A stretch of DNA of 64,000 nucleotides from Microcaldota archaeon (GTDB taxonomy: Archaea; Micrarchaeota; Micrarchaeia; Micrarchaeales; Micrarchaeaceae): the NCBI GenBank assembly GCA_021789815.1, contig JAJYIZ010000001.1:24001-88000 (forward strand). The letters are read 5' to 3'. Position numbers and translations under genes: made by a program. Each line of letters opens with the position of its first letter. Positions within the stretch are counted from its first letter, which is position 1. Positions 11,003-22,366 of the stretch are shown piece after piece. The notes under the pieces are model-generated. The model did not search any database, was not told the origin of the DNA, and saw only the letters and a program-made list of their open reading frames with translations.

Positions 11003-13336
11003 ATGGAAAACCCGCCGTTAATAGACGCTAAAAGGACCAATGCTGAGATGCACATCCCAAAGCAGAAAGGCAGGATAGCAAGCACTCTGTCTGGCTACAG
11101 GAAAAAAGTGCACAAGAAACACATAATCGCCGGTCTGATTTACACACTCATAGCCTTGGTCATATTCTATCCAATAACAGCGAACATGAAGTACGTTGCT
11201 CCAGGAACTGGTGGCGATCTCTATTCGAACCTCTGGGGCATATGGTGGGCGTCTTACACGGTCTTCCAGACGCACGGCAACCTGTGGTACACCTACCTGC
11301 TCTTCTGGCCTGTGGGCGCAAACGTCGCATACTTCACATTCTCGCCTATAGGCGCAATACTCACCGCTCCGTTCCAAGCTATCAGCGTTACCTTCGCTTA
11401 TGACGTGATATTCTTCTTAGGGTTCCTAATCTCCGGGATAGGAATGTTTGTCCTTGCAGATTATTTTGTCAAGAACACTTATGCAGCATTCTTCGCTGGC
11501 ATCGTCTTTGCGTACAGCGCGTTCCATGTTGCAGTAGCAATAGGCCATCTTGACTGGATGGTTATTGGTTGGGTTCCTATAGCGCTGTACTTCTTCATAC
11601 GAATGCTGAAGGACGAGCACAAGTACCAGTACGCGATAGGACTTGGTGCCTCATTTGTCTTTGCCATGTTTATGGGCGATGTAGAGCAGGGCATAATGAT
11701 TCCCGTAATACTCGCTGTTGTGTTTGTGTGCTATCTCATCTATCCCGGCACAAGATCCCTTTTTAAAGAGAAGAGGTTCTGGGCTTCTCTGGTTGTTGCA
11801 ATTATCGCAATGTTTGTGATAGGCTTCTGGGGGCTTATTCCAGTGATTCATGGTTTCACTGCACCTGGAGCCTCATCAAACATCAACAGCAGGAACAACC
11901 TGATAAATGACGCGGAATGGAGCAGTCCCATACTGTCGTTCCTGTTGCCGAGCCCGTACAACGGCCTTCTGCACGGCCTTACGAACAGCTACAGCAGCAT
12001 TTACTCTGGCGACCCCAATGAGAGAATAGCGTACATAGGCTACAGCGCGCTCCTTCTCATAGCTCTCGGCGTATGGAAGAACTTCAAAGCAGTGAGACTC
12101 TGGCTCGTTGTAGCAGTATTCTTCGGATGGATGGTTCTCGGCCCCTACATTGAAGTGGGGCAGTACAACCCTGCGAACATAAGCAGCTATGTGCCAGGCA
12201 TCTATTACGCGTATCATTCAATACCAGGTTTCAATGTACTGCAGGAGGCCGACAGGTTCTACGTTGCATTCAGCATAGGAGCCGCGATGCTCGCTGCGTT
12301 TGGAATGAAATCCTTGATTGAATACTTCCAGAAGAGCTCAAAGAACCGCAACCTGGTGTTTGCAGTTGTTGGAATCTTCACAATAGCATTCCTCGCAGAA
12401 AGTGCTGGGGTTATGACCGGCTCTTTTGCAAAGAGCACAACAACATACGTGACAGTACCGCAGTTCTACAACGAGCTAGGAAAGGTACAGGGCAACTTCT
12501 CTGTGCTGCAGCTGCCGATAATACTTAACAATTATATACAGTATCCGGATCTTGCAGCGGGTCAGGTGACCTTCTACACAAGCGCGTCGCGCAAGCCCGT
12601 ACTTGGTGGTTATGGCGGCCGCATGAACACCACGCAGCAGCTCTCGCTGCTTTCCATACCCTTAGCTGTAGCGGTCTACAACCTGCAGCTCGGCAACTTC
12701 ACTTACCATTCACCGGTAAATGAGAACTACACCGCGGAATCCCTATTAACAATGTACAACTACAACACCGCTTTCGTTGTACTGAACGAGCAGGCATTGA
12801 CGCAGAGCCAGCTTGCCCAACTGGAGAGCTATTCTGTGAAAACATTTGGCAATCCGATATACGCTGACAACAGCACGGTAGCGTTCGGCACACGCACAGC
12901 GATCAATCAATCAATATTCAGGCAGTACGTATCATATCCGTTTGTGCCTGACTGGCAGGGCTACGGAGCGTTCGTAAATGGAACAAACGTCACGCTCTGG
13001 GTGCCTATAAACCCTGGAGAGATCTCTGTATTCGCCCCATACGTGAACAAGACCGACATAATAAACAAAGCCTACTCAAACGCAGTCTACACAATCAATA
13101 CGACAGTGACAATGTATGGCCTTACAAGGAATGGGCCGAGCACCATACTTGTAGAAGAGGCCACATCGCAGAACCAGTATCAGACTATAGCTACAATAAA
13201 CCTTACGAGCAGCATGTCAAGGTATAGCTTTACTGTACCTATGGTGTCGGGGCCACGTGGCAACCCCCTGCTCTTCGTTCCTGAAGGCTCTGGGATATCC
13301 ATGCTGGCTGGCATAAGCTTCAGTGAGACCCCATGA
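11003..13336 (+). CDS. polytopic membrane protein, GT-C glycosyltransferase-like
   Basis: About 777 residues. After a basic cytoplasmic N-terminus (to ~40) there are 10-12 membrane helices to about residue 480, followed by a ~290-residue outside domain rich in Asn-x-Thr/Ser sites (for example NLTSS, YNLQLGNFT). The first outside loop has GTGGDLYSNLWGIWW, whose Asp could be the catalytic acid seen in the first loop of GT-C enzymes. This suggests a polyprenyl-phosphate-sugar transferase for surface glycans, but family membership is inference. The stop overlaps the XPF gene by 4 bp (ATGA). Start ATG 11003 rather than TTG 10988. Confidence 0.7.
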   Translation: MENPPLIDAKRTNAEMHIPKQKGRIASTLSGYRKKVHKKHIIAGLIYTLIALVIFYPITANMKYVAPGTGGDLYSNLWGIWWASYTVFQTHGNLWYTYLLFWPVGANVAYFTFSPIGAILTAPFQAISVTFAYDVIFFLGFLISGIGMFVLADYFVKNTYAAFFAGIVFAYSAFHVAVAIGHLDWMVIGWVPIALYFFIRMLKDEHKYQYAIGLGASFVFAMFMGDVEQGIMIPVILAVVFVCYLIYPGTRSLFKEKRFWASLVVAIIAMFVIGFWGLIPVIHGFTAPGASSNINSRNNLINDAEWSSPILSFLLPSPYNGLLHGLTNSYSSIYSGDPNERIAYIGYSALLLIALGVWKNFKAVRLWLVVAVFFGWMVLGPYIEVGQYNPANISSYVPGIYYAYHSIPGFNVLQEADRFYVAFSIGAAMLAAFGMKSLIEYFQKSSKNRNLVFAVVGIFTIAFLAESAGVMTGSFAKSTTTYVTVPQFYNELGKVQGNFSVLQLPIILNNYIQYPDLAAGQVTFYTSASRKPVLGGYGGRMNTTQQLSLLSIPLAVAVYNLQLGNFTYHSPVNENYTAESLLTMYNYNTAFVVLNEQALTQSQLAQLESYSVKTFGNPIYADNSTVAFGTRTAINQSIFRQYVSYPFVPDWQGYGAFVNGTNVTLWVPINPGEISVFAPYVNKTDIINKAYSNAVYTINTTVTMYGLTRNGPSTILVEEATSQNQYQTIATINLTSSMSRYSFTVPMVSGPRGNPLLFVPEGSGISMLAGISFSETP

Positions 13337-15035: not shown

Positions 15036-15051
15036 GAGAAGAAGTTTGCAA
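15036..15051 (-). repeat. 23S pre-rRNA processing stem, 3' strand
   Basis: In the rRNA sense this reads TTGCAAACTTCTTCTC, the exact 16-base complement of the strand at 17889-17904 on the other side of 23S. After two mismatched positions the pairing continues for three more base pairs (TAA/TTA) towards the mature rRNA. Archaeal 23S precursors are closed by such a stem and cut by the splicing endonuclease. Confidence 0.8.
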
Positions 15052-15054
15052 AGT

Positions 15055-17885
15055 TAGCCTTTAGTAATGGAATGTTCACAGGTCGCGTGAGCTCCCTGCT
15101 TGCGCACCCATCCTATCAAAGTCCTATAATTGGACCGGCCTAGTGCCTCGTTTCGGGTACAGCTTCGTCCTTAGATGCTTTCAGGACTTATCCGTTTGGC
15201 GCGTGGCTACCCGGCGATGCTTTCACAACCGGTACACTAGAGGCGCCGATCCCCTGTTCCTCTCGTATTAGGGGGATCTTATCCTCTGGCACTTGCACTC
15301 CCAGTAGATATTACCGTACTGTCTCGCGACGTACTGAACTCAGCTCGTGTTCGTTTTTAATGGACGAGCAGTCCAACCATTGGCGGCTTGTGCACCGCCA
15401 GGATAACGAAGGCCCATATCGATGTATCAATGCGCGAGGTCGATGTGAACTCTCACCCGCGACGAATCGGTTACCTCCAGAGTAACTTGTTTGACAGCTT
15501 GGACCCCCATTAAAAAGGGTACCAACGTTCGTTAAGCCCCACTTTCGTGTCTGCATCCCACGCTTTTCGAGATACAGTCAGCCCTGCATTTGCCTTTGCG
15601 CTTACCGCCGGGTTTCCAACCCGGCTAAGCAGAGCATTGGTCATTTTCGTTTCCTTATCGAAAATAACCGTCCAGTCTAACTATCCACCTGCAGCTGTTC
15701 CCTTCCGGGTTAGCTGCGAAACAGACTAAGAGTTGTGTTACATTGTCGCTCCACGGGGGCCGCAGCCCCCGCTTCGACGCTCCAACTTACGCTATGCATA
15801 ATCCATTGCACAACAACTACAGGCTATAGTCAAGCTTCATGGAGACTTCATTTCCCACTGAGAGATCGCGGCATATTCACCGCGCAGTAAGTTCACCGGA
15901 TCCGTTGTTGGGACAGTGGAACAATCGTTACGCCATTCATGCAAGTCACCTATTAAGTGACGAGGTATTACGCTACCTCAAGAGAGTCAGTGTTACTCCC
16001 GCTCTTTGCCGGCGCTTACTCCCCTTGAAAAGGGCATTCACGTACCGGCGGTGAGCAGGCGTCACCCACTGTACTTGGCCTTTCGGCTTTGCGGTGAGTT
16101 GTGTTTTTGATAAACAGTCGTTGTTCCCTTGTAAATGCTATCTGCGCATACCATACGCAGACATGGCTTGTCGATAACTTACGCCACCAATTTGCCGATT
16201 TCCCTAACTACGGTTATTCCGTCACACCTTGGCCTTTTCAGCCAGCAGCACTTGTACTAGATCTAGGTACGGAGCGACATGATCGTTGCAGATTCCCTTT
16301 TCACTGGCTCAGGAACTCATCCCAATGTTCATTTAGCTGCTTCTCCTCATAACGAGACTCCGCAGCCGTTTGCACTTTCTTGCGGGACTATCCCCAAACG
16401 TCAGAAATCTGCCTTGTGTTGCCACGCCTACATGTCGCGGGCTGGAATATTAACCAGCTTCCCTTTTGAAATATGGTGATTGGCCTATTTCTTAGGATCG
16501 CCTAACTCTCCGCTGACGAGCGTCGCGAAGAAAACCTTGTGCTTTCGGTGTATGGGATTCTCACCCATAGATGCTGTTACTAATACCAGGATTTTCACTG
16601 CTACACGGTCCATGTTCCCTTTCGGGGACACTTCGTGCCGTGCAGCACGCCCTCTTACCAGACTTTCGTCTCCAAGGTATCGGTACCTAGTTTAGCCCCG
16701 TATATTTTCGGTCAGATGCCCCTCAACTGGTACGCTATAACGCGTTTTTTAAAGGGTGGCCGCTTCTGAGCCTACCTCCCAGCTGTCTTAAGAGCTTCTA
16801 ACCTTTGTTACACTTAACTAGGATTTGGGGACCTTAACCTTGGTCACTATCTTTGCAGTCTCGCCACGCTAGCTTACCCAACATGGCCGACTCCCGGCAT
16901 CTACGCAGCGCGCGCATTCGGAGTTTGATAGGCTGGTGGGTCCTTTCGGGCCCATACCAGTCAATCGGTAGCTCTACCGCGCACGCAAGCTCCGCCGGAG
17001 CTATCCTAAAGATACTTCAGAGGGGACCCGCTATTGCCGCGCTCGAGTGGTATATCGCCGCTACTCGTAACTCACCCAACAGGACATGCCATGACAGGTT
17101 GCGGGCCTCCACCAGGCGTTAGCCTAGCTTCGCCCTGGTCACGAGTAGTTCGCAGCGGCTTCGGGTCGTATGAATGTGACTCTGGCACTTTCGTACCATG
17201 CTCCTCAATGTATGCGAGCTCTCGCTTTCGCTACGACTTTCGTCTCGCCACACCCAGACACTCCCTGGCTCTTGCTTCAAGAAGAATGATAGGACACTGC
17301 TCCATGCTCTTCGATGTTTCCTCTCGGAACTTCTCTTAGGAGCACTTCAGCGCTTCCGCGCCCTACCTTCGTGTCACCACCTAGTTTCAGATCTTTTCAA
17401 TCCCATGCGTATGGGTTCTTTTCAGCTTTCGCTCACGCTACTTGTTCGCTATCGGTCTGTAGTCAATATTTAGGGTTGGAGTTTAATGCCCCCGTATTCA
17501 TTCTCCGTATTCAGGGAGAATTACTCTTTTGCTGCAATCTCCAAAGATTTTTCGTCTACGAGGTTGTCACTCTCTATGACCGTTCTTTCCAGAACGTTCG
17601 ACTATTTCTCTGGATGAAACACAGCGCCACATCTCCTTCATCGTTACCAACAAAGGATTCGGTACGCCCTCTATGGCTTTCAATCGCTTTACTTACCATA
17701 TCGCTAATGCTTTCTTCTCCTCCGGGTACTAAGATATTTCAGTTCCCCGGGTATGCTTGCGTATTGCTACGCACAGTTAGGAAATCCCAGGTTCAGAGCC
17801 CGACATGCGGCTACCCTGGGCTTATCGCAGCTTGCCACGTCCTTCTTCGCTGCTACAGCCAAGCCATCCCCTAGGTGGTTTGTTA
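15055..17885 (-). rRNA. 23S ribosomal RNA
   Basis: The minus strand contains large-subunit rRNA landmarks: the 5' region GGATGGCTTGGCTGTAGCAG...GAAGGACGTGGC near 17870-17820, and near the 3' end the sarcin-ricin region complement (position ~15250, CCTCTCGTATTAGG on the plus strand is the classic TACGAGAGG reversed) and AAGCATCTAAGGACGAAGC. Ends are placed from the flanking stem and are approximate. At about 2.83 kb it has no room for an intron and is at the short end for archaea. No 16S, 5S or spacer tRNA is next to it, so the rRNA genes are unlinked here. ORFs in this region are shadows. Confidence 0.96.
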
Positions 17886-17888
17886 ATG

Positions 17889-17904
17889 TTGCAAACTTCT
17901 TCTC
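17889..17904 (-). repeat. 23S pre-rRNA processing stem, 5' strand
   Basis: RNA sense GAGAAGAAGTTTGCAA, directly before the mature 23S 5' end and exactly complementary to 15036-15051. The region 17905-18060 upstream is the rRNA leader; apart from this stem I see no gene in it. Confidence 0.8.
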
Positions 17905-18100: not shown

Positions 18101-18598
18101 TTAGTGTTCTAGAATGTATGCCCTGCATTTGAAGCCGAATCCTTCCTTCATACTTTTTGCTATTATTCTTCTATTCCCGTCTATAATCTCGTATCCACCA
18201 GTATCAACACTCCTAATTACAATGGGATATCTGACAAGATTGAGCTCCCTTCTGTGATGTACGCCCATTTTCGCGTACCAGCTTAGTTTCTTGTTTCTGA
18301 ATAGACGTGTAGCTCTAGGTTTCAACAATTTGACTATTTCTTCTAGAGTAAAAAGGTTATTGTTGTATCTTTTCCTAGATATTCCTAGGGGCTTGTATAT
18401 CCCGTAATATGGAAAATCTTTTGAGCTATTATATGTATGATGATACACATAAAGTCGTTTTATCTGTCTTGTACTGAGGTTACATAATTTAAGCCTGCTG
18501 TAAAGTTTTTGATTGTAGACTCTATCTATCCATTTCTTGTCAAGCGTGTTGAGATGTGAGTACAGAGACCTTCTGCTTACCTTTCTCCCTTTCATCAT
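18101..18598 (-). CDS. ParB-N/sulfiredoxin-fold domain protein
   Basis: About 165 residues, very basic. The C-terminal part YPIVIRSVDTGGYEIIDGNRRIIAKSMKEGFGFKCRAYIL matches the ParB N-terminal/sulfiredoxin fold, with DGNRRI in place of the usual DGxHR nucleotide-binding motif. The N-terminal ~100 residues are rich in Lys, Arg, Tyr and Asn and match nothing I know. It is AT-rich compared with neighbours, which suggests acquisition. ATG 18598 or 18595 lies about 27 bp after CCTATTTATAAG. There is no ParA nearby, so a plasmid-partition role is not supported; a CTPase or nucleic-acid enzyme is possible. Confidence 0.65.
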   Translation of the reverse strand: MMKGRKVSRRSLYSHLNTLDKKWIDRVYNQKLYSRLKLCNLSTRQIKRLYVYHHTYNSSKDFPYYGIYKPLGISRKRYNNNLFTLEEIVKLLKPRATRLFRNKKLSWYAKMGVHHRRELNLVRYPIVIRSVDTGGYEIIDGNRRIIAKSMKEGFGFKCRAYILEH

Positions 18599-18682
18599 AT
18601 TGGCTTTGGAACGTTGAGGACTTATAAATAGGTTATGCTTTAGCAACATTTTAACCTCTTATAGACGACAGGCACCGACGAC

Positions 18683-18700
18683 AAGTATATATATCTGGAC
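18683..18700 (+). promoter_or_regulatory. TATA promoter of the TFIIB-like gene
   Basis: AAGTATATATATCTGGAC, identical over 18 bases to the promoter at 5118-5135 (other strand). It lies 21-38 bp before the GTG at 18721. Confidence 0.6.
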
Positions 18701-18720
18701 GGACTGATAGCCTGCTGCGG

Positions 18721-20592
18721 GTGAACAGGTTGCCACACAGACTAGATAGCCAGAAGGCGACAGCAATGTGGGCGAAGCGAGACGCCGTGAAGGAGGACCC
18801 AAAGATAGCCCCTCTTTTGGATACCGCTACGCAGATAGCGCGAGCTTCTGGAGGTTCGCCGCAGTCCAGCATAGCGTTGGTCGCAAGAGTGGTTACTGTT
18901 AGGGAATTAGCCCCAGATATGGAAGCTAAGATGACGGTTGCTGCTGCAACCGTTCTTGAACTGAGGGACAGGAGAAAGAGGCCTGATTTTCAGCTAATTT
19001 CACACAGGTTTGAGGTTTCTGCAGATGAATTGAGGGCCGTGAGCAAGGCGCTAGAGGAGCAAAGGGACTCTGCCAAGAAGGGCATCCTGCGCAGCGAGCC
19101 TGGACTTGCAATTTCTATGCCAAAGCCCAGGGTTCCAAACCAGAAGAAGGCAGACGCCCAGCAGGCCATACTGAGATTTGCAGTTAGTGAGGAGTGGAAA
19201 GAGCCTATAAAACAGGCTACAGATTTCTTGGTGAGCTTGAAGTTCAAGAGGCAGGCCAGCAGGGGTGTCGCAGCTCTCGCCAAGGCGGCCTACGATGCCG
19301 GGCTTGTAGAAGGCAGGAGTCCTGCAGTTGTTACTGCTGCAGCAGCATCCATAATAGCTGTAAAATACGGCAAGAACCCTGGCGATTGGTCGAGAATTGC
19401 CGACAGATTAAACTTGGAGGATTCCGAAGAGCTGAAGGCTACAGCAACAAGCATTGTAGCAAAGATGCAGTTTCCAACAAAAGTGTACAGGTTCTTCGGA
19501 ATAGATAGGGGCCGTGTGAATGTACCGATATCTGAAGAGGAGAAGAAGGCCATCCAGACACCCCACTCAGAGAGGGATCTTGGGAAAATGATTCGCAGAA
19601 GGACCGAAGAGATAGCAGCCGGGCTTGTAGAAAAGACCCAGAAATCGGTTACAGATACATTGTCAGAGAAAATTGGCAAGGAGGCTCGAGGGCTAGCCAG
19701 AAGGCTTTCAAGGGAGTTCGATCGAACTGTACGCTCTGCTGCAAGGCAGACCGCACGCGAGCTAAAAAGACAGGTTACAGAGCTTGCGGAGCAGATTAAG
19801 GCGGAGAGGCTCGAGGAGCTGAAGAAGGGACTACTAAGAAGTGCACCGCTCAGGGGGTCGGAGAGCGGCACACCGATCAACGCCACACTGCCGAACAGGC
19901 TAAGCATACAATTGCAGCAAACATCATTGGAGCGCGAGGTCAGGACCATTAACGGTATCGGAATGCTATCAGAGCTTGCAGGAAGGCTCAAAAAGACCGA
20001 CCATATCCCAGAACATCTGGAGTCGATCGCCGGGGATATGATTGGCAAATATTATGCACTTGACAGGTTTGTACCACAGGCTGAGGGTGGCAACGGCGAT
20101 ACCATGGCCATAGCGGCCGCTGCCATCTACTATGCAGGCCATAGGACCCACATGAAAGTAGGTGTAGACAAGATAATATCCGTGGCAGGGATATCGAAAA
20201 ATGAGATGTATTTGGGGCTCTCTACATTATCGGAGGTGTTACGGCTCGACATACTGCCGGACGTGACCGAGCGCGGTCTGAAGGAGCTCGCAAAACGCTT
20301 CCACACCGGAGAGGATACTACGCTGAAGGCCAGATCCTTCTTCATGACGGCATTGAACCGCGGTGCGGTCACTGGTGATAACGAACAGGCAATGTTAGCT
20401 GCGTCCTACTTTACAGCTGCAAAGATAGTAGACTCTGGAATAAAGAAACAGCCGGGGCAGAAATACCCAGAAGTGGATAGGGACGAACTCATCGACCATA
20501 TGTCGATAAAGGCGGTAGAGTTGAGGGAAGCGATAAGAAAGCTCGTCTTTGCTGTTGATATACCAGAAAAGCACAGGGCCCTGGTACTCTAG
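18721..20592 (+). CDS. TFIIB-like protein with four cyclin-type repeats and a central coiled coil
   Basis: A 623-residue soluble protein. Residues ~145-245 (DFLVSLKFKRQASRGVAALA..., AGLVEGRSPAVVTAAAASIIA) look like a TFB core cyclin repeat: helix, then G-R-S-P, then AAA-x-Y/I-x-A. Similar five-helix units are seen at ~25-110, ~410-500 (NGDTMAIAAAAIYYAGHRT... VAGISKNEMYLGLSTL) and ~510-610. Residues ~265-390 are a long charged helix, probably a coiled coil. The N-terminal zinc ribbon and B-reader of TFIIB are missing: no Cys pairs at all. So two TFB-like cores joined by a coiled coil is the reading; transcription function is inference. GTG 18721 start; ATG 18766 is an alternative. Confidence 0.7.
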   Translation: MNRLPHRLDSQKATAMWAKRDAVKEDPKIAPLLDTATQIARASGGSPQSSIALVARVVTVRELAPDMEAKMTVAAATVLELRDRRKRPDFQLISHRFEVSADELRAVSKALEEQRDSAKKGILRSEPGLAISMPKPRVPNQKKADAQQAILRFAVSEEWKEPIKQATDFLVSLKFKRQASRGVAALAKAAYDAGLVEGRSPAVVTAAAASIIAVKYGKNPGDWSRIADRLNLEDSEELKATATSIVAKMQFPTKVYRFFGIDRGRVNVPISEEEKKAIQTPHSERDLGKMIRRRTEEIAAGLVEKTQKSVTDTLSEKIGKEARGLARRLSREFDRTVRSAARQTARELKRQVTELAEQIKAERLEELKKGLLRSAPLRGSESGTPINATLPNRLSIQLQQTSLEREVRTINGIGMLSELAGRLKKTDHIPEHLESIAGDMIGKYYALDRFVPQAEGGNGDTMAIAAAAIYYAGHRTHMKVGVDKIISVAGISKNEMYLGLSTLSEVLRLDILPDVTERGLKELAKRFHTGEDTTLKARSFFMTALNRGAVTGDNEQAMLAASYFTAAKIVDSGIKKQPGQKYPEVDRDELIDHMSIKAVELREAIRKLVFAVDIPEKHRALVL

Positions 20593-20611: not shown

Positions 20612-20992
20612 TCATTCTAGAATGACAGGTGAAGATGTACTGTTTGGAGAATCCACAGTAGTACTCACCGAGTCCAAATGACGACTTGTTTCTCTAAGTT
20701 TTTCTAGCAAGGTCGTAAGTGTTTTGTTATGGTCTCCTTTCGGATCTAACTCTATATCGAAAACTAATTCTCTAGCCATCTTCCTTACTTCACGTACCTC
20801 TTTACCTGGCTCTTCGGGTAGCTGCGGGCCGACTACTCTTTTCTCTGCTTCGTTTACAAAGTTCCTTAGCAATGATGGTAAACCCGTAGGATGGGTTCTG
20901 TAGAGATCTACCTGGGCGGTAAGTGTGCCGACACTACTTCTAAGCGCAGATATGCTCGTTTCATCCGGCTTTAATTCTATCAATGATGGCAT
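20612..20992 (-). CDS. hypothetical protein (orphan, helical)
   Basis: About 126 residues: MPSLIELKPDETS then predicted helices (ALRSSVGTLTAQVDLY, LLRNFVNEAEKRVV, KEVREVRKMARELVF, LTTLLEKLRETSRHLDSV) and a Ser/Pro tail. No family is recognised. The open frame extends to 21079, but a strong TATA box (CGTATAAATATC, about 21044-21055) would sit inside such a gene; ATG 20992 fits a start site about 25 bp after the TATA. Convergent with the TFIIB-like gene. Confidence 0.6.
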   Translation of the reverse strand: MPSLIELKPDETSISALRSSVGTLTAQVDLYRTHPTGLPSLLRNFVNEAEKRVVGPQLPEEPGKEVREVRKMARELVFDIELDPKGDHNKTLTTLLEKLRETSRHLDSVSTTVDSPNSTSSPVILE

Positions 20993-21133
20993 TTTTGCTG
21001 ATGGTGTTGACAATCTATCTACCGGAGCCCTATCGCGGAACATGATATTTATACGTATCTTTTCGAGGTATTGTCCCATTCACAGCGTTAATGACTTAAT
21101 ATTAGCCTTCCAAGATATCACTGCGTGTTATCG

Positions 21134-22366
21134 ATGCTTAGAATGGCCTCTAGCAGGGGCATCTCAGGAAAGATAAAGGAAATGCCAGAGGATTTTGTGG
21201 TAGAGGAGATAGCGAAGAACGGGAAGGTGCTTACGCTCAATGAAAGGGTTAGCAGTGATGCGGTTGGCATGCATGCCTCTCAGGCAGGAAAATTCTCTGT
21301 TTTTGTAATGCAGAAAAAAGACTGGAATACCATCCAGGCGTTGAAGGTACTTGCTAAGAAGGCGGGCCGAGGGATAAAGTCTACAGCATTTGCCGGCACA
21401 AAGGACAGGGCATCTGTATCGACACAGATTTGCAGTATATTTGGGGCAAGAGCCGACAGGCTTGCAACCCTACATGTAAAGGATATCGCGATAAATGGGG
21501 CGTGGCAGAGCGACACCGGGGTTGAGCTTGGCGACCTCCTGGGTAACAGATTTACGTTAACAATTAAGGAGAGCGACGCCACACAAAGTTCAATACATGC
21601 CATTGAAAAAGAGCTCAATGGATTGTTTCCAAACTACTTTGGAGAACAGAGATTCGGCTATCGTGGAAACAACTTTGAGATTGGCCTTGCGATAATAAAG
21701 GGTGAGTTCGAAAAGGCGGCTATGGAATTCCTTACAAATACGAACAACGAAAGGAACCTTGATTCTATAGAAGCTAGGGAAAGGCTCTCCAAAGAGCTTG
21801 ATTTCAAGGCGGCGCTCGATTATTTTCCGCAGTATCTAAAGTATGAGCGTATAGTCCTGGAGTACCTTGCAAAGTACCCTACAGACTACGCAAATGCGAT
21901 AAGGAGGCTTCCAAGACAGCTATCTCTCATGATGGTGCATTCTGTTGAAGGGTATATATTCAACGAAGAGGTGGAAGCCAGGCTCGGCGTACATGAAATA
22001 AAGCCCGGGAGCGATGACCTGTTCTGCAACCCAGACATGCACGGGTTTCCGAATCTTTCTACGATTAAGAACGCAAAAGAAGCAAAGCACGAACACGCAT
22101 CCTTCCTCGTGGGCAACATAATAGGGTATGATAGTGAAGCGTTGAATGAGGCAGAGAAGGAGATACTTGAAAGGATGAACATAACAAAAGAAATGTTCAA
22201 GATACAGAGCATGCCGGAGCTCAGCTGCAGGGGCAACTACAGAGTCCTTTTTGCGCCGTATACGGGCTTCTCAAGCCATGTTAGCGATAACTCTGCAGTT
22301 CTCTCGTTCTCCCTGCCTGCCGGCTCCTACGCCACGGTTCTACTGAATGAGTTTGTCAGGGACTAG
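21134..22366 (+). CDS. truD: tRNA pseudouridine(13) synthase TruD
   Basis: About 410 residues. GKIKEMPEDFVVEEI is the TruD N-terminal signature, FAGTKDRASVSTQICSIFG holds the catalytic Asp in GTKDR, and FPNYFGEQRFGYRG is the NxFGxQRFG motif. The TRUD insertion domain follows and SCRGNYRVLF closes the fold. It makes pseudouridine 13 (and in archaea 35 of tRNA-Tyr). GTG 21125 and ATG 21143 are alternative starts. Confidence 0.95.
   Translation: MLRMASSRGISGKIKEMPEDFVVEEIAKNGKVLTLNERVSSDAVGMHASQAGKFSVFVMQKKDWNTIQALKVLAKKAGRGIKSTAFAGTKDRASVSTQICSIFGARADRLATLHVKDIAINGAWQSDTGVELGDLLGNRFTLTIKESDATQSSIHAIEKELNGLFPNYFGEQRFGYRGNNFEIGLAIIKGEFEKAAMEFLTNTNNERNLDSIEARERLSKELDFKAALDYFPQYLKYERIVLEYLAKYPTDYANAIRRLPRQLSLMMVHSVEGYIFNEEVEARLGVHEIKPGSDDLFCNPDMHGFPNLSTIKNAKEAKHEHASFLVGNIIGYDSEALNEAEKEILERMNITKEMFKIQSMPELSCRGNYRVLFAPYTGFSSHVSDNSAVLSFSLPAGSYATVLLNEFVRD

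Follow-up and report, generated by a model that had tools for sequence, protein, structure and literature searches.

A TFB-derived protein with four predicted cyclin folds and no zinc ribbon in a micrarchaeal genome

The 64,000-nucleotide stretch of DNA analysed here (the window) encodes a 623-residue protein that is apparently an undescribed variant of the TFB kind, real and structurally well supported. It is not TFB proper, as both the zinc ribbon and the B-reader are absent, and sequence comparison supports its descent from TFB well. TFB-type cores are usually understood as a single repeat pair joined to a ribbon that binds polymerase; in this protein the core stands free of any ribbon and is present more than once. 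We tentatively propose, at chances a little short of even, that this TFB-derived protein acts as a competitor of TFB at a subset of promoters, or as an occluder of them.

Gene, predicted folds and relationship to TFB

The gene belongs to a genome of 679 kb in 29 contigs (G000), and in codon-position GC it is like the window's other genes (Table 1). A TATA sequence lies ~30 bp upstream of the GTG, which would suit a transcript with little or no leader, and a similar element was found upstream of a 243-residue and an 864-residue relative in two sister genomes (G210 and G209, respectively). The protein as a whole has a pI of 9.7. Of its parts, the N-terminal pair of folds (pair 1) has a pI of 9.8, the linker 10.4 and the C-terminal pair (pair 2) 7.0; the TFB core has 9.6.

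Table 1. Features of the locus and single-lobe TBP genes of the same genome (window positions unless a locus is named).
Feature	Position	Strand	Remark
23S rRNA gene	15042..17898	-	divergent from the 623-aa TFB-like gene
TATA-region element AAGTATATATATCTGGACGGACT	18683..18705	+	unique in window, 0 in shuffles
623-aa TFB-like protein gene	18721..20592	+	intact ORF, GTG start, four predicted cyclin folds
Cyclin fold a (predicted), residues 30-124	18808..19092	+	pLDDT about 65-94 by block; related to fold b
Cyclin fold b (predicted), residues 160-248	19198..19464	+	TFB repeat-2 type
Long amphipathic helix (predicted), residues 308-368, in basic linker	19642..19824	+	pLDDT about 50, 93-96 degree period
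Cyclin fold c (predicted), residues about 412-507	19954..20241	+	TFB repeat-1 type
Cyclin fold d (predicted), residues 514-611	20260..20553	+	TFB repeat-2 type
TruD-like pseudouridine synthase gene (presumed)	21125..22366	+	conserved neighbour, synteny anchor
Single-lobe TBP gene, 105 aa	L094:1453-1770	+	motif YEPEQFPG
Single-lobe TBP gene, 117 aa	L095:1453-1806	-	motif YEPEQFPG

When the protein was modelled with AlphaFold2 from two aligned sequences only, 30% identical, four five-helix units were predicted with pLDDT mostly 70-95, close to the intervals (20-120, 140-245, 405-500 and 505-612) that the first-pass annotation had read as two pairs of cyclin-type repeats. Pair 1 modelled alone had a mean pLDDT of 80. 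Foldseek searches of the PDB returned an archaeal TFB core as the best match of the full model (1ais_B, E 1.5e-4, probability 1.00) and a TFIIB core as the best match of pair 1 alone (5wh1, E 3.3e-5), and in both searches CDK-type cyclins ranked below TFB/TFIIB; the structure-prediction check against the TFB core that had been proposed thus came out in favour of cyclin folds. The TM-scores of the best matches did not exceed about 0.43, a low value explained by the uncertain position of the repeats with respect to each other (pTM 0.37 and 0.48). Repeat orientation in these models is unreliable, and the claim of four folds rests on the repeats and not on their arrangement. With two routes in agreement, the predicted fold is well supported.

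The two pairs are separated by a linker of 126 residues (263-388) with one helix predicted at low confidence. We found a significant hydrophobic period of 93-96 degrees in the linker (peak 95 degrees, 0/500 shuffles), and no heptad period, the moment at 102.9 degrees being only 0.07. The coiled coil of ~120 residues described earlier holds in part only: the linker is there and has a predicted helix, but its designation as a coiled coil is unproven. A match of the linker to DUF445 (E 1.8e-4, below cut-off) was read as a match of helix composition.

The TFIIB-like assignment was upheld by profile searches as well as by the first Foldseek matches, all TFB/TFIIB cores. PF00382 (Pfam TFIIB) matched two stretches of the protein with 29.7 bits (cut-off 23.6, E 6.5e-7) and four stretches of the 864-residue relative with 35.9 bits, and the NCBIfam TFB model matched residues 463-571 with E 5.9e-9, short of the 384 bits set as cut-off for this model. 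Against a reference profile of the TFB core built from 39 canonical TFBs of the phylum, pair 2 (about 412-611) was collinear with both repeats in R1-R2 order (hhalign 97.1%, E 6e-11, spanning positions 16-182 of 186), as was the third pair of the 864-residue protein (95.4%, E 2e-8). Taken singly, fold c matched TFB R1 (94.1%) and fold d TFB R2 (65.6%), while fold b matched R2 (85.8%, i-E 2.5e-7) and not repeat 1. Fold a gave no direct match to any TFB repeat; it matched fold b (90.3%), and its counterpart in the 864-residue protein matched the b-type repeat profile at 3.7e-9. The b-type profile itself had matches in 257 of the 301 phylum genomes, those listed being TFB-sized frames, and a profile of the two full-length proteins had matches in 254 of the 301, those listed beyond the two queries being TFB-sized frames aligned to columns about 480-608, that is, to pair 2. 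By direct and profile matches, therefore, all folds trace to TFB. The two pairs are not alike: on these alignments pair 2 is the better-kept TFB core, and pair 1 consists of two mutually similar R2-like repeats.

Missing ribbon and reader, altered contact residues and the TBP partner

The zinc ribbon of TFB/TFIIB proper is absent, as the first-pass annotation had reported: no ribbon pattern was found in the protein, and none is possible because there are 0 cysteines in its 623 residues. The pattern was missing in 3 of 56 TFB-core-bearing frames, namely the two members of this family and a frame that a contig start truncates. The B-reader and B-linker are likewise absent, with about 25 residues ahead of fold a, and matches to TFB models and PDB chains were confined to the cyclin regions. 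The loss of both ribbon and reader excludes the usual route of RNA polymerase recruitment.

We then compared contact residues with those of the 39 canonical TFBs, in which KKEIGR and PRT of repeat 1 and VTIR of repeat 2 are invariant or nearly so. At these sites pair 2 has KNEMYL, KVG and VELR, with VGV in place of RTL. The recognition helix of fold d retains V599 and R602, corresponding to canonical V167 and R170 (both in 39/39 TFBs); the 864-residue protein has V and H there. We take the V and the R of repeat 2 (human V283/R286) to be BRE contacts, the human TFIIB residue numbers having been placed on the archaeal sequence by us. In fold c, K493 is the K188 equivalent and H474/R475 fall in the region of human TFIIB R169; at the R169 position itself there is an H with an adjacent R, the 864-residue protein has an R, and the other KKEIGR/PRT residues are mostly lost. 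In TFIIB, R169E and R169E/K188E lower binding to TBP (PMC6004067). Since the V, the R and the K188 equivalent are kept and the rest is lost, docking of pair 2 on DNA or TBP is possible but would be weakened or altered, and TBP binding may be gone because KKEIGR and PRT are mostly lost. The earlier suggestions that the protein binds two BRE/TATA sites or serves as an alternative TFB are speculative.

An ordinary TFB with a ribbon is encoded elsewhere in the genome (contig C9). This reduced genome, which keeps a single ordinary TFB, offers a natural test of how a TFB core acts when it does not recruit polymerase. Canonical TFB is present in the other genomes of the genus except the incomplete G209 and except G206 (rated 88% complete), which gave no TFIIB-family match; the latter absence may be an assembly gap.

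The ribbon-less cores occur in a phylum in which TBP, too, is divided, into proteins of one lobe each. A comparison of 40 genomes of the phylum showed a normal two-lobe TBP in some families, a pair of single-lobe genes in the present one and one such gene in others; within the genus, the pair was found in 8 of 9 genomes and one gene in G209 (57% complete). In the source genome the two genes are unlinked. Both products carry the same motif, whose glutamates are presumably those that contact TFB, so that a TBP dimer could have two TFB docking sites. A multi-core protein without a ribbon might then be bivalent, capping the second TBP site or clamping two promoter complexes, a long shot in our estimate; if true, it would set the direction or strength of transcription and form a new class of promoter factor. 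Half-TBPs alone do not explain the TFB-like family, because they are far more widespread. Single-lobe archaeal TBPs have been mentioned before, and two glutamates in the C-terminal TBP lobe are known to contact TFB (PMC7221094).

Relatives, locus and rate of change

Full-length relatives beyond the genus were not found among 301 phylum genomes; the only full-length matches were the source genome and G209, and wide occurrence of the family in the phylum was accordingly rejected. A scan of genome contigs with the single 623-residue protein gave no match, and one with the alignment matched the G209 contig alone. The closest publicly named relative is Candidatus Micrarchaeota MAG contig DAHXLV010000007.1. 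The 864-residue protein of G209 has three pairs. The 243-residue protein of G210 has one, which matches the third pair of the former (E about 1e-5), and in a 354-residue protein of G211 two b-type repeats flank a helical linker; G211 also has a second paralogue at a contig end. Cyclin folds in the G210 and G211 proteins are putative, being assigned by alignment. The number of folds therefore appears to vary in four sister species (about 2 (1+1), 2, 4 and 6). Found only in one genus and missing from several of its genomes, the family is not essential to the lineage.

The gene lies beside one that we take to encode a TruD-like pseudouridine synthase, which is located about 1-6 kb from the 23S gene in 6 of 9 genus genomes, the source genome counted. 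In G000, G209 and G210 the TFB-like gene is found in the interval from the 5′ end of 23S to the TruD-like gene and diverges from 23S, and the same stretch is without such a gene in G204, G206 and G208. Gene order within the stretch varies, a GDSL-type gene being found on different sides; the argument that the G210 gene occupies this same locus therefore comes from its upstream region, where the local score of G000/G210 was 65 (G000/G209 36, G209/G210 38) and unrelated window genes scored at most 20. G204 and G210 have an intact GDSL-type hydrolase gene in this stretch, of which an apparent remnant was seen in G209 (L034, about 11380-11660). Two further ORFs flank the TFB-like gene in the window, both on the minus strand and both without a relative among the loci compared: an AT-rich 182-aa frame between it and the 23S gene (18101-18649), with a weak ParB_N match (E 0.0034, below cut-off), and a 155-aa frame just 3′ of it (20612-21079), with no family match.

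The family changes fast. The TFB-like proteins of G000 and G209 share about 30% identity and their TruD-like neighbours 69%, and dN was 0.25 for the neighbour and 0.81-0.87 for the TFB-like pairs; synonymous sites were saturated in this comparison, hence no dN/dS ratio is given. For canonical TFB, identity reaches 93% in the comparison of G000 with G210. For the G211 paralogues dN/dS was about 0.31 (0.37/1.18; 91 codons). The gene is thus fast-evolving and apparently under selection.

The two G211 copies look like a duplication involving a tRNA gene, as a complete tRNA-Ile (L035:245-322) precedes the first and an apparent partial tRNA-Ile copy (L091, about 1360-1500; not called by ARAGORN) the second. 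The first locus also holds a 703-aa thioredoxin-reductase-like frame (L035:2437-4548, plus strand) with a long insertion after its CATC motif, and this insertion (CLTPSS...VHNC, then DGPFF) looks like an intein.

Possible functions and related factors

The closest known structure is the archaeal TFB/TFIIB core (1ais, 1d3u, PF00382), with which the protein shares the cyclin fold, the R1-R2 order and, in pair 2, the V and R of the R2 helix, but from which it differs in its two pairs and long helical linker, the missing ribbon and B-reader and the mostly lost KKEIGR/PRT. Sulfolobus TFB3, a truncated paralogue of TFB for which competition has been proposed as the mode of action, is like our protein in being rearranged and unable to fill a normal initiation role; it retains its zinc ribbon and is without the BRE-reading HTH, whereas the 623-residue protein is the opposite (PMC2246294). 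Brf1/Brf2, Rrn7/TAF1B and AtBRF5-type factors are also divergent TFIIB relatives with an altered domain plan, and AtBRF5 is without a ribbon (PMC7865254), but they have at most one cyclin pair and none is described there with two or three. A literature search, with subscription journals mostly outside it, found no paper on such a protein, in line with the first-pass statement that no family with a two-pair, ribbon-less plan was known.

Our preferred reading is a lineage-specific offshoot of TFB in which ribbon and B-reader were lost and the DNA- and TBP-binding core was multiplied; a core that sits on promoters but brings in no polymerase is the simplest model. Pair 2 would dock on TBP-DNA or on BRE-like DNA, and pair 1 with the basic linker may provide a second contact to DNA or protein; lacking the ribbon, the protein would not recruit RNA polymerase and could compete with TFB at some promoters or occlude them. 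The predicted folds and the descent of pair 2, the missing ribbon, the ordinary TFB elsewhere, the retained contact residues, the basic pI of the whole protein, pair 1 and linker, the conserved promoter region, purifying selection in the paralogue pair and the TFB3 precedent were counted for this competitor model. Counted against it were the mostly lost KKEIGR and PRT, the neutral pI of pair 2, unlike a DNA-binding core, the restriction of the family to part of one genus and the unreliable repeat orientation. The rRNA promoter and the gene's own promoter would be the first candidate targets, guessed from the divergent position. A dedicated regulator of the 23S promoter would suit the divergent arrangement in three genomes, but we consider it improbable, as three others lack the gene in the 23S-TruD stretch, its position relative to the GDSL-type gene differs and the G211 copies lie elsewhere. 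Without ribbon and reader, a competitor or occluder is more likely than an initiation factor. That the protein is a true alternative initiation factor, contacting polymerase by a route other than the ribbon (the helix or pair 1), is rather hard to credit in a genome with a normal TFB, given the absence of ribbon, reader, linker and cysteines, even though VITF-3, a non-canonical TBP/TFIIB pair, forms a ring with a different mode of recruitment (PMC12917281) and TAF1B/Rrn7 is without the TBP-contacting Arg (PMC7221094).

An unlikely but more substantial alternative is that the protein binds DNA or serves as a scaffold in chromatin, replication or segregation rather than in transcription, its long helix spanning the two pairs, by analogy with Orc6. 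The latter has two TFIIB-like cyclin boxes without a ribbon that bind DNA in replication, and in some species an insertion between the folds (PMC3791464); it differs in having only two folds and an ORC-binding C-terminal region, and the likeness is offered as a functional analogy only. The loss of most TBP-contact residues and the variable number of folds are no harder to reconcile with such a scaffold than with a promoter factor, and pair 1 and the linker are strongly basic. On the other hand, pair 2 is specifically an R1-R2 TFB core with V599/R602 of the BRE-reading helix kept, and the weak ParB_N match in the adjacent ORF was the sole sign of a gene for replication or segregation in the vicinity. 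If the protein were a relic of TFB fragments, or a near-neutral duplicate of them on which constraint is weak, its very fast divergence and patchy presence would be accounted for; we give this reading little credence, because frames of 623 and 864 codons are intact with codon-position GC like that of other window genes, the TATA surroundings are similar in three genomes, the folds are predicted with confidence and dN/dS is about 0.3 in the G211 paralogues.

A role in defence was rejected, as PADLOC gave no match, and so was a viral or plasmid origin: plasmids and viral contigs gave no match to the protein, and phages gave 12 weak matches to Rhodococcus phage DNA polymerase (E about 0.06). PHROG 20431, which carries no assigned function, matched with E 3.7e-7, and the named BFVD matches among the best were mostly ordinary viral TFIIBs and cyclins.
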